A stretch of 43,148 nucleotides of DNA from a virus, in the IMG/VR virus record IMGVR_UViG_3300023223_000182, positions 1 to 43,148 of that record; one strand, 5' to 3'. Under the pieces are notes generated by a model. It worked only from the letters and a program-made list of their open reading frames with translations. It made no database searches and had not been told where the DNA came from. The translations under genes and the position numbers were made by a program. Of this stretch, positions 3,498 through 10,587 are shown piece after piece (positions within the stretch are counted from its first letter, which is position 1; each line of letters begins with the position of its first letter).

Positions 3498-4982
3498 TTA
3501 TCCTCCTATCGCCATTTTTAACAACTCTTCCAAATTAGAAAAAGCACCTGACAACTCACTAAGGACATAGACACCCGCATCAACTCTATTAGGAGACTTC
3601 CCATTAGATTTTTGCGTCACTGGATCAAAGTCCATCATCTCCTCTTCAAATTTTGAAAGACCTGCCCTATGTGAAACTAAACCAAGTTCGTACAACGCTA
3701 CAACAGGTTCAGCTCTTAACGCTTTTCCTTTTTTAGCATGTATTCTAATCACTCTACCCTCATACCCTGCATTACGTAAAGTATCTTCACACATATCCCC
3801 ACCTTGATTAGTCTCTATCACGACAGCATCAGCGTCATGAAAATCATACGCATGAATAACCGCTTTTGCCCAAGTCTTTGGCGATCCTTTACGGGAATAA
3901 TCCGCATCTATACTATATAGTTTATTGGGATGTTCACTACCTACCATTATTCCATGCTCATCCGATTTTTCTGTATTCGTAGTTGCTGGATCAACTGCAA
4001 CCAATGTTCTAATAGACTTTGCCCCTATGCGCTTATTCTTAGCCGCTATAATAGTACTCTCCATCCATAAAACAGTATCCTCATCACGTTTAAGCGGTTT
4101 CTGTTTATATTGTGCATTGTATTTTCTTCTATGACTTTCTAAAGCAACTTTATGGAGATCGTTATGCTTGAACAACCATAGCCAACCATTTTTTAATCCA
4201 TGCTTGATTTGTATGCCGTGGGTGTACTCTTTTGGATACTCTTCTGAATTGTCAACCATCACTGGCAGTTTCAAATGGTGCCAGTATTCGCCAGAACCCC
4301 CCGTTAACAAATAACCACTCAAATCATTAAAATGAATACGTTGCATGATAACAATAATAGGCGTTGTTTCAATAGCGATACGAGAAGCAACGGTTTCATT
4401 GTAACTATTATTAACTCCTTCTCGTATTATTTCAGAGTAAGCATCATCAGGTTTAACAGGATCATCAATCACTAATGCACCTGTAAATTGTTTATTATCC
4501 ATATGCCCCGCTCTAAACCCTGTTACCTGTCCTCCTGCTGCTGTTGCTGTAACACCTCCATTAACATTTGTATGCCAAATCTTTTTACTGTCCGTATCAG
4601 CTTTGACGCTAATAGGCCACATCTTTTGAAAATTTGAACTTTTAACAATCTCACGTATCGTACCTGAGTTTTGCATTACTAATTTATCAGAATAAGATAA
4701 ATGTAAAAATCGAGACATTGAATTTATAGCGAGTCCTCTAGCCATGTAACCAATACTAGCTAACTCTGTCTTAGTATAGCCTGGGGGGACGTTAATAATT
4801 AAACGTGAAATAAATTGTTCATCATCGGGGGGTAACATTGTTCTATCGAGAGCGTTTTGAATAATAGAATGATGTCGGCCTAAAATCATTTTGGAACCAA
4901 AACGATGCTTCATAAAATAACGATTGAAGTACAACCCATCAAGCTCACACTCTAATCGTCTTGCTTCAGATTCAACAGTCAT
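3498..4982 (-). CDS. terL: Terminase large subunit
   Basis: A 494-residue packaging motor with ATPase and nuclease halves. The ATPase half has the Walker A-like PPGYTKTE near residue 67 and the Walker B ALVIDDPVK near residue 170. The nuclease half has an RNase H-like fold with acidic motifs VAVDPATT, VIETNQGGD and SPNRVDAGVYVL. The frame is open three codons further upstream to a TTG, but ATG 4982 (MTVESEARR) is preferred; it overlaps the small subunit gene by 11 bases, so translation is probably coupled. Walker A has Tyr-Thr where many terminases have basic residues, which is common in this subgroup. It belongs to the Terminase_6-type large subunits by motif. Confidence 0.93.
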   Translation of the reverse strand: MTVESEARRLECELDGLYFNRYFMKHRFGSKMILGRHHSIIQNALDRTMLPPDDEQFISRLIINVPPGYTKTELASIGYMARGLAINSMSRFLHLSYSDKLVMQNSGTIREIVKSSNFQKMWPISVKADTDSKKIWHTNVNGGVTATAAGGQVTGFRAGHMDNKQFTGALVIDDPVKPDDAYSEIIREGVNNSYNETVASRIAIETTPIIVIMQRIHFNDLSGYLLTGGSGEYWHHLKLPVMVDNSEEYPKEYTHGIQIKHGLKNGWLWLFKHNDLHKVALESHRRKYNAQYKQKPLKRDEDTVLWMESTIIAAKNKRIGAKSIRTLVAVDPATTNTEKSDEHGIMVGSEHPNKLYSIDADYSRKGSPKTWAKAVIHAYDFHDADAVVIETNQGGDMCEDTLRNAGYEGRVIRIHAKKGKALRAEPVVALYELGLVSHRAGLSKFEEEMMDFDPVTQKSNGKSPNRVDAGVYVLSELSGAFSNLEELLKMAIGG

Positions 4983-6069: not shown

Positions 6070-6105
6070 CGTTTTAGCCCTCTGTTTGTGTGTCTGTTAT
6101 ATACA

Positions 6106-6133
6106 ATTATAGACCATTAATAATAGATATCAA
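6106..6133 (-). promoter_or_regulatory. Leftward sigma70-type promoter
   Basis: Read on the minus strand: TTGATA (6133-6128), 16 bases, then TATAAT (6111-6106), a near-consensus promoter. It would start transcription near 6099, about 30 bases before the first leftward ATG. A second possible -35, TTGACA, lies further upstream at 6152-6147 but pairs with a poor -10. The spacer contains ATTATTAAT exactly four bases before the -10, an arrangement repeated at two rightward promoters. Confidence 0.75.
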
Positions 6134-6147
6134 GTTTTATTATTAAT
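6116..6147. repeat. Inverted repeat over the leftward promoter (operator candidate)
   Basis: ATTAATAATA at 6116-6125 and its exact reverse complement TATTATTAAT at 6138-6147 flank the -35 hexamer of the leftward promoter. One arm lies in the promoter spacer, the other just upstream of the -35. A dimeric regulator bound here would cover the promoter. Related TTAATTATTAA sequences occur at 12739, 23197 and in the inverted repeat at 13684-13716. Confidence 0.6.
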
Positions 6148-6152
6148 GTCAA

Positions 6153-6484
6153 CCTACGCCTAAAAAAGTTACAAATCCCTCAACAGGAGCAAAATCAAGG
6201 TGTTACGGGTTGTAGTGGGTGTTTCATTTAAGTTGAAACTGAATTTTCCTTTATTTTTCAAGGGCTTATATAGTTGTTTTAGGTGTTACACCTTTTTTAA
6301 TTAAATATATATATATATACCTATACACTATACTATCTCTCTTATATACTTTTTAAGTCGAAAAACAAAGAAAACCTGTAACAGATAATAACTATAAGTT
6401 TTCTTTTAGTTTCAATAAGTTAGCTAAGGCTGGGAAAGTTATGCGTTTATTTTTATAAGAGAATGGTTGAAAATATAAAAAGAG
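6153..6484. other. AT-rich gene-free control region, replication origin candidate
   Basis: No convincing gene lies here. The stretch contains AGGTGTTAC at 6198 and 6281, the latter as AGGTGTTACACCT, a perfect 6-bp arm palindrome; an inverted repeat GTTTCA/TGAAAC at 6221-6239; a run of alternating AT at 6305-6319; and a very AT-rich flank to about 6350. Between divergent early transcription units such a region could hold the replication origin. This is inferred from composition and position only. A 41-codon frame at 6463 was considered and not accepted. Confidence 0.4.
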
Positions 6485-6512
6485 TTGCAAACGAATTTGT
6501 GTATGCTATAGT
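6485..6512 (+). promoter_or_regulatory. Main rightward promoter
   Basis: TTGCAA (6485-6490), 16 bases, TATAGT (6507-6512). This matches four and five of six consensus positions and lies about 135 bases before the first rightward gene. Transcription would begin near 6519, within the first of two TCCATGGC copies. The resulting leader contains the large hairpin at 6548-6618. Confidence 0.65.
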
Positions 6513-6515
6513 TAC

Positions 6516-6548
6516 TCCATGGCTAATTTCTAACAAAACATCCATGGC
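6516..6548. repeat. TCCATGGC direct repeats at the rightward start site
   Basis: TCCATGGC occurs at 6516-6523 and 6541-6548, 25 bases apart, the first copy overlapping the predicted transcription start. Each contains the palindrome CCATGG. Placement and spacing suit a repressor binding site, but no binding protein can be named. Confidence 0.4.
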
Positions 6549-6618
6549 AACTCACCCCAGATCCCAAGCGATTCCCTCCAGAAGTTAGCCCCTCTGATAT
6601 CGCTTGTGGGGTGAGTTG
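6548..6618 (+). promoter_or_regulatory. Structured 5' leader, possible RNA switch
   Basis: Outer stem: CAACTCACCCCA (6548-6559) pairs perfectly with TGGGGTGAGTTG (6607-6618). Inner stem: CAAGCGAT (6565-6572) pairs perfectly with ATCGCTTG (6599-6606), separated from the outer stem by a 5-base bulge on one side; the loop is 26 bases. There is no T run, so it is not an ordinary terminator. The left-arm segment CTCACC (6551-6556) is also complementary to GGTGAG at 6631-6636, the ribosome binding site of the gene at 6648, so stem formation and ribosome-site masking would exclude each other. Confidence 0.6.
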
Positions 6619-6647
6619 TCTCCCTTATTAGGTGAGATATAGTAGCT

Positions 6648-7040
6648 ATGCGAAAGTCTTACTCTATTAACTTAGATCCTATTATTATTGAAGCATTGGA
6701 CGCTTATATCTTGAGAGAAAAAAAACGTGTCTTTAAAAAAGAAGGGGACTATGCTTACGCGTTACGTTGTTGGAGCAGGTATTTTTTTATTGAAGAAGCT
6801 ATTAAGAAATTAGACGACACTATTTTTAAATTTACGCCTACATTGCGAAAATCTTACTTGATTAAACTAGATACAAAAGTGGTTATTGCATTAGATTTAA
6901 AAATCCTAGAAGAGAAATGCTGTGTACTTAAGAAAGAAAAGCTTGATGTGTATCTTCTCCGTTGTTGTCGTAGAAATCTTTTTATAGAGCAAGCTATTAA
7001 ACAATTAATAGAACGCAAGAAGGAGAAAGTTAATGCTTAA
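6648..7040 (+). CDS. Duplicated ribbon-helix-helix-like protein
   Basis: A 130-residue protein made of two gapless 57-residue copies (residues 1-57 and 66-122) that agree at roughly half of their positions. Each copy starts RKSY-x-I-x-LD (a possible beta strand), then a helix (IEALDAYIL or VIALDLKIL), a basic linker, a conserved LRC-xx-R, and a final helix FIE-x-AIK-x-L. Strand-helix-helix with such a start resembles ribbon-helix-helix regulators, with an unusually long link between helices; two copies in one chain would make a single-chain pseudo-dimer. It is the first gene after the structured leader, so an early transcription regulator is plausible. This is inference from pattern only. Confidence 0.65.
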   Translation: MRKSYSINLDPIIIEALDAYILREKKRVFKKEGDYAYALRCWSRYFFIEEAIKKLDDTIFKFTPTLRKSYLIKLDTKVVIALDLKILEEKCCVLKKEKLDVYLLRCCRRNLFIEQAIKQLIERKKEKVNA

Positions 7041-7233
7041 ACGTGAGATACCTAGGATGAAGGTTTTACTATCAATAGTATTGTCAACACTTGGGGGGGG
7101 CTTGTTGGCATTTATAAGTATTATAGTATTTGAGTTTAAAGTTACGATATATCTTCCTCCGTTTGATTCAATTAGAGGTGAATGGTTAATCTTTTATTTT
7201 ATGGTTTTAGGATTGATTAGTAGATATGAATAA
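7033..7233 (+). CDS. Small membrane protein
   Basis: A 66-residue protein with two hydrophobic segments, about residues 10-31 (VLLSIVLSTLGGGLLAFISI) and 48-62 (GEWLIFYFMVLGLIS), joined by a short loop. Its start overlaps the preceding gene by 8 bases and its end overlaps the primase-helicase by 8 bases, with AAGGAG upstream, so it is translated as part of a tight early operon. No family recognised; function unknown. Confidence 0.6.
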   Translation: MLKREIPRMKVLLSIVLSTLGGGLLAFISIIVFEFKVTIYLPPFDSIRGEWLIFYFMVLGLISRYE

Positions 7234-9220
7234 CAAGGAGCTAAAACAAGTGGTACTAGATGATTTAGCGCGTAGTGGGTTAACAACTATGGATTTTAAA
7301 AAAATGCGATTGACGCCATGTGACGCCGATAGAGCTGAAGCGGTATTAAACAGTTCTTTTGCCACTCATGGCTATGTTCTCCCTTATTTTGATATTCATG
7401 GTAAGCTTATAGATGTGTTTAGATTTAGATTTACTAGTGAAATAAAAAACAAAGAAAAAAAAGTAGTTAAGTATTCCCAACTGAAAGGAACTGATCCTCA
7501 TCTTTACTTTTCTCCTTGCATTAAATGGAAAAAGATATTAACCGATCCAAGTATTACCGTTACGTTTACTGAGGGGGAGAAGAAAGCGTATAAGGCATGT
7601 AAAGAGGATATTCCTACTATTGGGCTAGGAGGGGTCTGGGCTTTTCGATCAAAGAAATTACGTAAAATGTTAATTGACGATTTTAAACATATTACGCTAC
7701 AAGATAGGAAAGTATTGTTGTGTTTTGATAACGATAGTCAAAGCAACCCGGATGTTATGAATGCATTACGGGCTTTTTCTAAAGTTCTAAGCGATAAAGG
7801 TGCTGTTGTTTTTAACAAAAAGTTGCCGTTTAACTCTTACCAAAAAATAGGGTTAGATGATTACTTATTAGACCATAGTAAACGGGATTATAATAATATC
7901 CAAGAAGATCAGTTTGATGAGTTGACGGAAATAGATGAACTCAGCAGTGAAGTTGCTTATATTCGAGAAGTAGGTAAGTTTTATCTTTTTAAAGATAATT
8001 TATTTATAAACCGTACCGCGTTGATCGATACTAAATACGCTAATCGAACAACTATAGGGGAGGATGGTAAGTCTGTTAGTGTTGCAGAACTGTGGGTGAG
8101 GTCTCTTAAACGTAGAGAGCATATTCGTTTAGCTTATAGCCCTGGACAACCAGAAGTAACGGAAAACAATGAGTATAATTTGTGGAAAGGTTGGGGATGC
8201 GTACCTAAGAAAGGGAGTATTAAAATATTTTTAGATGCGGTTAAGATTATTTTTAATAATGATAAAATATTGATTGCTTGGTTTTTAGACTGGGTAGCAT
8301 ATCCTATTCAAAATCCAGGTGCAAAGATGTTAACTGGCGTATTGCTCCAGTCTATTGAGCATGGCACTGGTAAAAGTTCTATTGGAATGACTATAGGCGC
8401 GATGTACGGCCACAATTATCGACTTGTTGACGATTCTCAAATGAACAGGGCTTTTAATGAGTGGGCAGTGAATAAACAATTTATTTTAGGAGATGAGATA
8501 TCAGGTAAGGATAATAAGCGTGGGGAAGCGGATAAGATTAAGAATTTAATTACACGACCAGAGGTGACGCTTGAGAAGAAATGGCAACCGTCTTATACCG
8601 TAAAAGACTGCATCCAATACTTATTCACCTCAAATCATGTAGACGCTTTAAGCATCGATCCAGGGGATCGACGTTGGTTTGTCTATAGAGTTTTAGCAGG
8701 GTTGGGGTTTTCTTTAAAGATGGGGGTGGCACTTGAAAATTTTAGAAATGGGGGTGGTACAGCTCATTTACTTCATTATTTTATTAATGAACATAGGATA
8801 ACAAAGGGGTTTGATCATAGAGCAGATGCACCTATGACACAAGCCAAGCAAGATCTAATCGACCACTCATTAACAGATATTGAACGGTTCCTCGTCAATA
8901 TAAGAACTAACCCAGACTTTGCATTATCCATTGATGGCGTGAACATTGACAGAGACTTATACACAACTGGGCAAGTTATTAGTCTTTATCAAATTAAGAA
9001 CCCAAGAGCGAACGTAACAGAAACGGCAATGGGCAAAGCATTAACTAAGATATTCGATAACGTCTATGTCGTACGAACCCGTTCATCAGGTACACAGAGA
9101 TTACGTGCGTTAAGGAATTTAGATAAATGGAAGTCGGCTAATCATAAACAGATACAAGAGCATTATGATAGGTCAAAAATCGCATTATTTGAAGCTAAGA
9201 AACGGAAACATAAAACTTAG
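7226..9220 (+). CDS. Primase-helicase (DUF3854 and DUF5906-like)
   Basis: A 664-residue replication protein. The N-terminal third resembles DUF3854 TOPRIM-like primase regions: VTFTEGEKKAYKACK (acidic Glu motif), IGLGGVW, and LLCFDNDSQSNPDV (the DxD-like motif). The C-terminal half is a phage/plasmid superfamily 3-type helicase: Walker A EHGTGKSS near residue 380, Walker B FILGDEIS near residue 420, and the LFTSNHVDALSIDPGDRRWF sensor region with its arginine finger-like DRRW. It should unwind DNA and prime synthesis for the family A polymerase encoded at 16717. It starts with an 8-base overlap of the membrane protein gene. The N-terminal assignment is less certain than the helicase. Confidence 0.85.
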   Translation: MNNKELKQVVLDDLARSGLTTMDFKKMRLTPCDADRAEAVLNSSFATHGYVLPYFDIHGKLIDVFRFRFTSEIKNKEKKVVKYSQLKGTDPHLYFSPCIKWKKILTDPSITVTFTEGEKKAYKACKEDIPTIGLGGVWAFRSKKLRKMLIDDFKHITLQDRKVLLCFDNDSQSNPDVMNALRAFSKVLSDKGAVVFNKKLPFNSYQKIGLDDYLLDHSKRDYNNIQEDQFDELTEIDELSSEVAYIREVGKFYLFKDNLFINRTALIDTKYANRTTIGEDGKSVSVAELWVRSLKRREHIRLAYSPGQPEVTENNEYNLWKGWGCVPKKGSIKIFLDAVKIIFNNDKILIAWFLDWVAYPIQNPGAKMLTGVLLQSIEHGTGKSSIGMTIGAMYGHNYRLVDDSQMNRAFNEWAVNKQFILGDEISGKDNKRGEADKIKNLITRPEVTLEKKWQPSYTVKDCIQYLFTSNHVDALSIDPGDRRWFVYRVLAGLGFSLKMGVALENFRNGGGTAHLLHYFINEHRITKGFDHRADAPMTQAKQDLIDHSLTDIERFLVNIRTNPDFALSIDGVNIDRDLYTTGQVISLYQIKNPRANVTETAMGKALTKIFDNVYVVRTRSSGTQRLRALRNLDKWKSANHKQIQEHYDRSKIALFEAKKRKHKT

Positions 9221-9879: not shown

Positions 9880-10587
9880 ATGAGAACTAAATGCTTAATA
9901 CTTATAAACACAGCACTTTTATTGATAGTCCTTGTGCTAGTGTCGGCAGTGGGGGCAGAGTGCGAAGCCGGAGAACTGGAGGCGGTAGTATTATCGTCCA
10001 CTAAATTTACAGAACGATATGACCACGGTACTGGAACGTGGGTAGGACTACAGATTAACTATAATTTTGATAACGATTTGTATATATTTGGTTCTCAGGA
10101 AGACATAGACGTTTTATTGTTAGGTGGTAAAGCGTGGACGTATGATATTAAAGGTGTAGGCGTAGGCACTAAGTACCGAGTTAATAAACGCCTTAGATTA
10201 TTTAGTCAAGTAGGGTACTATATGATTAAGGATTCTATCGGTCAACGGCATAAAAACGAGGATGAGACGTTTGGGTACTATCTTGGAAATAGATATTCAT
10301 CAGATGCGTTTGTAATATTTGATGAAGTAGGACTTAAACATAGCGAGTACACCTTTGGGATCGCTGTTGGTGCTGAGTTTATCTATCCTATTACTAAGAA
10401 TTGGACGACGGGTTTTGTGGTGTCGTACCGGCGTATGAAAATTAAGGAAGATATCAGCGGTTATAATGATGATTGGGTTTGTCCTTATGGTAGTGAGCAT
10501 AGCGGTGGGTGTGATAAATTACATAGCGCACAAAACGAAGATTATAGCTCGATTAATATAGGGCTTAATTTGGTGTGTAAATTTTAA
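9880..10587 (+). CDS. Secreted outer-membrane beta-barrel-like protein
   Basis: A 235-residue protein with a clear signal peptide: basic start, hydrophobic core LLLIVLVLV, and a probable signal peptidase I site after AVGA near residue 26. The mature part alternates amphipathic strands with short turns and loops, and ends LNLVCKF, with the C-terminal Phe typical of outer-membrane barrels. The start is ATG 9880, chosen for AGGAGG eight bases upstream; the frame is open further upstream but overlaps the preceding gene. Length and strands suit an 8-stranded barrel like OmpX/Lom. Such phage proteins may mask receptors or alter adhesion of the infected host; this role is inference. Confidence 0.7.
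   Translation: MRTKCLILINTALLLIVLVLVSAVGAECEAGELEAVVLSSTKFTERYDHGTGTWVGLQINYNFDNDLYIFGSQEDIDVLLLGGKAWTYDIKGVGVGTKYRVNKRLRLFSQVGYYMIKDSIGQRHKNEDETFGYYLGNRYSSDAFVIFDEVGLKHSEYTFGIAVGAEFIYPITKNWTTGFVVSYRRMKIKEDISGYNDDWVCPYGSEHSGGCDKLHSAQNEDYSSINIGLNLVCKF

Follow-up and report, generated by a model that had tools for sequence, protein, structure and literature searches.

The leader of a rightward early operon in an uncultivated phage contains a large inverted repeat close to the predicted promoter, which raises the question of whether the repeat folds into a regulatory RNA and, if so, which sequence this RNA pairs with. The window, that is the whole stretch of DNA analyzed here, is one virus record of 43,148 bases. 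Based on the predicted promoter, transcription is expected to start at about 6518-6519, with the hairpin beginning approximately 27 nt into the predicted transcript. The spacing and the -10 element of this promoter recur in the close relative L005, and promoter-like matches overall are not more common in the window than in shuffled sequences.

The operon opens with gene 1, followed by an ORF of 66 aa and a primase-helicase gene. Genes located beyond the primase in the rightward direction are related to replication, including genes encoding DNA polymerase, helicase, thymidylate synthase, and exonucleases. Packaging genes are located to the left of the leader, and a tail sheath gene is among the virion genes. 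No integrase, repressor, or other lysogeny gene was seen among the window proteins scanned, and a scan of genome collections did not find a close prophage. A scan for relatives of gene 1 recovered L005 alone, and a sequence search against the PDB returned only chance-level matches. The two units of gene 1 share 77% DNA identity over 48 nt (6765-6812 and 6960-7007), and the pattern YSINLD...ALD...IEEAIK is reminiscent of ribbon-helix-helix DNA-binding proteins.

The original prediction described a perfect 12-bp outer stem and a perfect 8-bp inner stem, and both are borne out. Positions 6548-6559 and 6607-6618 form a perfect inverted repeat, which is extended by G6547-U6619 and G6546-C6620 into an outer stem of 14 bp (helix P1, 6546-6559 with 6607-6620). 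The inner stem (helix P2) pairs 6565-6572 with 6599-6606. Together, the two helices form a near-continuous duplex of approximately 22 bp with a 5' bulge and a single large loop of 26 nt. The CTCACC at 6551-6556, the GGTGAG copies in the right arm and at 6631-6636, and the lack of a T run were also described correctly. The predicted fold of 6519-6660 has an energy of -46.6 kcal/mol, compared to -30.4 kcal/mol (sd 3.8) for shuffled sequences (z -4.3), and none of the 200 shuffles was as stable. The shorter segment 6519-6620 gives a z of -4.6. A total of 25 long stems (≥11 bp, spanning 58-111 nt) were found on both strands of the whole window. Among these, the leader hairpin is the only one with a loop-complementary 5' flank and the only one followed by NCC. 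These results support the claim that the leader of the early (primase) operon contains a structured RNA. Considered together with its relatives, the leader hairpin is a real, evolutionarily conserved RNA element.

Table 1. Features of the primase-operon leader in the window, and loci of the G+C-rich leader hairpins in other phages.
Feature	Position	Strand	Basis
Predicted rightward early promoter, TTGCAA-16-TATAGT, TG before the -10	6485..6512	+	Sigma-70-like consensus match only
a1, GGCUAAUUUCU, 5'-end target of the hairpin loop, 11 pairs including one G-U	6521..6531	+	Shuffles and covariation
Predicted RNase P cut	6545/6546	+	End context shared with phage P1 C4
Hairpin RNA, 75 nt (P1, bulge, P2, apical loop)	6546..6620	+	z -4.6; P1 covariation
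P1 5' arm, includes CTCACC 6551-6556	6546..6559	+	Fold, inverted repeat, covariation
5' bulge GATCC between P1 and P2	6560..6564	+	Fold; AGATCCC retained in L005
P2 5' arm	6565..6572	+	8/8 pairs retained in L005, two double changes
Apical loop	6573-6598	+	Fold
Antisense segment AGAAGUUAGCC in apical loop	6580..6590	+	Pairs with a1; duplex -15.4 kcal/mol
P2 3' arm	6599..6606	+	Fold; pair comparison with L005
P1 3' arm	6607..6620	+	Fold, inverted repeat, covariation
UCC flush with P1, the NCC context common to L005, L006, and phage P1 C4	6621..6623	+	
Likely gene 1 ribosome site (AGGTGAG), 13 nt upstream of the start	6630..6636	+	Sequence
AGCTATG, gene 1 start region with degenerate a1 copy	6644..6650	+	Sequence; weak loop pairing
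Gene 1 (130 aa), with two similar units in tandem; matches no family	6648..7040	+	
Primase-helicase (DUF3854, DUF5906, VapE-like), third ORF of the operon	7226..9220	+	
G+C-rich leader hairpins	L002:3697-3864; L004:752-919; L058:4762-4918; L071:1640-1791; L134:4545-4704; ~25 more		

The hairpin had been proposed to act as a switch, in which opening of helix P1 would free CTCACC to block the GGTGAG ribosome site, the two pairings being mutually exclusive. The 6-nt complementarity does exist, with a duplex energy of -10.1 kcal/mol. However, forcing 6551-6556 to pair with 6631-6636 yields a structure of -34.0 kcal/mol instead of -49.1 kcal/mol, a cost of about 15.1 kcal/mol, and the modelled probability of this pair is about 6e-11. 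Shuffled ribosome-site regions also match the arm over 6 nt by chance in 5.4% of cases. Moreover, the complementarity is lost in the relatives, in which the corresponding duplexes reach only -4.3 (L005) and -5.4 kcal/mol (L006). Energy, chance expectation, and relatives thus all speak against this switch, and we regard it as highly improbable.

While the stems of the original prediction stand and its switch does not, a stronger pairing had been overlooked. The sequence a1, near the 5' end of the predicted transcript, is complementary over 11 pairs to a segment of the apical loop (Table 1). Relatives were retrieved by primase-based searches of viral contigs, in which a single-sequence query found nothing and alignments were required. 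Two close relatives, L005 (primase 79% identical) and L006 (60%), share the same leader plan. The corresponding pairing is formed by GGCUUAGUUCUG and CAGAACUAAGCC in L005 and by GGCUAGGAAA and UUUCCUAGCC in L006. Among the 10 loop:a1 pairs comparable across the window, L005, and L006, six show double changes and four are invariant, with 0 of 30 cells broken. Helix P1 retains 14 of 14 pairs in the three phages (10 double changes, none broken), and helix P2 retains 8 of 8 pairs between the window and L005 (two double changes); all these covariation counts come from gap-free arms picked by hand in three clear sequences only. The related leaders thus show compensatory changes of the kind that the original prediction had named as a check. 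Shuffled 5' flanks equal the observed loop match in 5 of 20000 cases for the window, 0 of 20000 for L005, and 70 of 20000 for L006. A fourth, looser case of loop:a1 pairing is found in L008, where 28 of 20000 shuffles reach the match. In L008, an apparent strong intrinsic terminator (4899-4936; GCCCC...GGGGCTTTTTTT) also immediately follows the hairpin and closely precedes the primase gene, which suggests that attenuation may occur in that phage.

Two other close relatives, L007 and L009, show no such leader, and its distribution among relatives thus appears to be patchy. A DNA search with the conserved core AGATCCC-TTCCCYCCAGAA recovered only the contig of L005 itself and sequences that fold otherwise, and a search with a promoter-plus-a1 pattern recovered L005 and three unrelated sites only. 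Architecture scans lacking an NCC filter gave many chance matches.

The covariation bears on whether this locus acts as RNA at all. The inverted repeat adjoins the promoter, as a protein-binding site or an origin acting at the DNA level might, and an ATG (6544) lies at the base of the hairpin in all three phages, where it could start a leader peptide. Neither the G-U pairs nor the loop:a1 covariation has a DNA explanation. The leader peptide was rejected, since the ATG has no evident ribosome site and its codons are not conserved: most codon differences between the window and L005 change the amino acid, and the L006 frame ends after six codons. The AU|G sequence is also the cleavage context of C4 RNA. 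Explanations of this kind are very unlikely. Another reading takes the hairpin as a structure at the start of the early mRNA that is processed by RNase III or stabilizes the message, in which case the loop match would do no more than cap the 5' end. The near-continuous duplex of P1 and P2 would be a plausible RNase III substrate, but this reading has no need for the loop:a1 covariation or for the NCC that follows the stem, and we consider it unlikely.

The ends of the hairpin point to a known type of phage RNA. The hairpins are 75, 77, and 77 nt long in the window, L005, and L006, respectively. Each starts at AU|G and is followed by NCC (UCC, UCC, and GCC). The original prediction knew of no phage leader with this layout, yet the order of target, hairpin RNA, and target occurs in C4 of phages P1 and P7 and in CI of phage P4. 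The P1/P7 C4 leader (RF01695; targets c4-a1b1, RF03163) likewise consists of a promoter, an upstream target, a hairpin of about 77 nt, and the ribosome site of the first gene. Its loop is antisense to the upstream target, and its ends are AU|G...C|NCC. In the phage P1 record, C4 is annotated as 77 nt and ends AU|GG...CC|ACC. According to the summary in a paper on Acinetobacter C4-like RNAs (PMC5320573), RNase P cleaves C4 at the 5' end of helix P1, leaving approximately 77 nt, and the loops of C4 cover sequences located upstream as well as the ribosome site. P4 CI has two pairing partners, seqA upstream and seqC downstream, and brings transcription of the replication genes to a stop (PMC4825925). 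CI and the window element have in common that a hairpin RNA occupies the leader of an operon encoding a primase-helicase (replication) and that its loop is complementary to the flanking leader. A third comparable system is IsrK of Gifsy-1 (RF01394), a leader RNA of a prophage that changes access to the first ribosome site by pairing (PMC4825925).

Like C4, the window element has an antisense segment whose complement lies upstream in its own leader, but it differs in structure. C4 folds into a three-way junction (P1 closing P2 and P3) and carries a' and b' as separate antisense segments, with two target pairs that are 7-8 nt long. No such junction is present in the window, where P2 extends P1 linearly beyond a 5' bulge and ends in a single large loop, and no second antisense segment was found in addition to the 11-nt one. 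The upstream target lies at the extreme 5' end, and the downstream target is weak. The Rfam C4 model has no match in 6100-7100 at E values up to 10 and none in L005 or L006 at E values up to 2, while the control sequences score 68.8 bits (P1 C4) and 74.9 bits (P4 CI). P4 CI was missed by our own architecture script at its settings and was recovered by the Rfam model. Neither by sequence nor by its model does isrK have a match in the window, although the model does respond in P4 and P1. None of 4227 Rfam models, including riboswitches, reaches its gathering score in the window; the only weaker match in 6100-7100 is RT-2 (13.8 bits against a cut-off of 40), which lies outside the hairpin. Because of the mismatch to the C4 model and the absent three-way junction, the element is described as C4/CI-like in layout and is not filed as a family member. 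It is best read as a putative new structural variant of the C4/CI antisense kind. The systems also differ in their setting. Phage P1 is temperate and its C4 controls an antirepressor, whereas the window element lies on a primase operon. P4 CI has a C4 fold and terminates transcription during lysogeny, whereas no lysogeny module was found in the window. IsrK is a terminated sRNA that activates.

The position of the hairpin, its helices, the loop:a1 covariation, and the AU|G...C|NCC ends all follow from the leader sequences and their comparison. From them we infer cleavage by RNase P, action in trans, repression as the sign of regulation, and an effect on the primase. RNase P would cut at 6545/6546 and free the hairpin as a small RNA, whose loop would then pair with a1 of newly made leader transcripts. 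In L006, the loop would also pair with the ribosome site of the first gene, since it matches GGCUAGG (7 nt) at this site with -14.5 kcal/mol. The loop pairing would lower the expression of gene 1 and the primase by hindering translation and/or by promoting early termination, and early expression would fall as the phage copy number rises. The counterparts of the AGCTATG start region are GGCTATG in L005 and GGCTAGG in L006, and a C4-like downstream target at the ribosome site of the first gene is clear only in L006. In the window (-7.9 kcal/mol) and L005 (-6.3 kcal/mol), pairing of the loop with the start region of gene 1 is weak, which makes a downstream target doubtful. The mismatch to the Rfam C4 model, the small number of clear sequences (three), the missing leader in L007 and L009, and the lack of detected lysogeny genes, whereas C4 and CI serve lysogeny, also count against this reading. 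We give a probability of roughly 0.47 to the proposal that the window leader contains a C4/CI-like antisense module that is cut from the primase-operon leader, pairs with the 5' end of the transcript, and tunes early expression, which is about even odds against all rivals together.

The main rival is a pseudoknot acting in cis, in which the 5' end of the transcript folds onto the loop of its own hairpin, competes with pairing between a1 and the gene 1 start, and thereby sets gene 1 translation with no separate antisense RNA. The same loop:a1 covariation is expected here, as the pairing is equally possible within one molecule, and we estimate that the linker of 12-15 nt that separates a1 from P1 suffices to span P1 and P2. 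A further possible partner of a1 is the start region of gene 1, both in the window (-14.1 kcal/mol) and in L005 (-12.3 kcal/mol). Owing to this pairing, capture of a1 could even activate expression, as proposed for IsrK. However, L006 does not retain the a1:start pairing (-4.9 kcal/mol), and in L005 the transcript may start too far downstream to include all of it. Nor would a size of 75-77 nt or C4-like ends with AU|G and NCC be expected from a pseudoknot. We consider it possible but doubtful, and the C4/CI-like antisense module is preferred.

A second class of leader hairpins was found upstream of more distant primase genes, including those of Pseudoxanthomonas phage PW916 and Stenotrophomonas phage AXL3. 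These hairpins are G+C-rich and have a variable basal stem followed by NCC, with an invariant CCUCAGCAA inside. One or two copies of GCUGAG(G) are located downstream: a small second hairpin displays GCUGAG, and GCUGAGG precedes the gene. NCC follows 22 of 25 distinct basal stems, and it was not used for finding the stems. Since related sequences are counted and five of these stems had their ends manually trimmed or moved by a few bases beforehand, a binomial value can serve only as an indication. The consensus fold of this class is dominated by misaligned basal stems. No Rfam match was obtained in the loci scanned, no published name was found, and a search with the AXL3 leader among cultured phages recovered only AXL3 and PW916. 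Like the window element, these RNAs form a leader hairpin before a homologous primase gene with a basal stem and then NCC, and their internal antisense CCUCAGCAA is complementary to the flanking leader (GCUGAGG). They differ in that the targets are only downstream, the antisense sequence is invariant, the hairpin starts at the expected transcript start, and a second small hairpin displays GCUGAG. In L047, a long region of tandem and inverted repeats (160-326) scores against plant microRNA precursor models below the Rfam cut-offs, which the repeat presumably causes by chance.

In the temperate elements P1, P7, and P4, antisense RNAs released from a leader by cleavage are already known to control early genes. 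The leaders described here combine this layout with a different RNA fold, on the primase operon of uncultivated phages in which lysogeny genes were not detected. A similarly planned leader RNA is present in AXL3, for which the authors found neither lysogeny genes nor stable lysogens and which is reported as virulent (PMC7504290). We tentatively suggest that C4/CI-like antisense RNAs of a distinct class, released by RNase P from the primase-operon leader, may allow phages lacking a lysogeny module to meter their own replication genes and exclude superinfecting relatives, with the window form and the G+C-rich AXL3/PW916 form as two branches. If so, virulent phages would also carry RNA-based feedback or superinfection control, which is testable in a cultured phage.

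Two further features of the window were observed outside the leader. A leftward promoter at 6106-6148 (TTGATA-16-TATAAT, 11/12) is overlapped by a perfect 11-bp inverted repeat (CATTAATAATA/TATTATTAATG), and similar promoter-plus-repeat copies occur in L005 at 7711-7792 and 9996-10068. This arrangement looks like an operator used several times. A 99-aa ORF at 9561-9860 matches Dam-type adenine methyltransferase families in their C-terminal part alone and is probably a fragment or a minimal version of such an enzyme.
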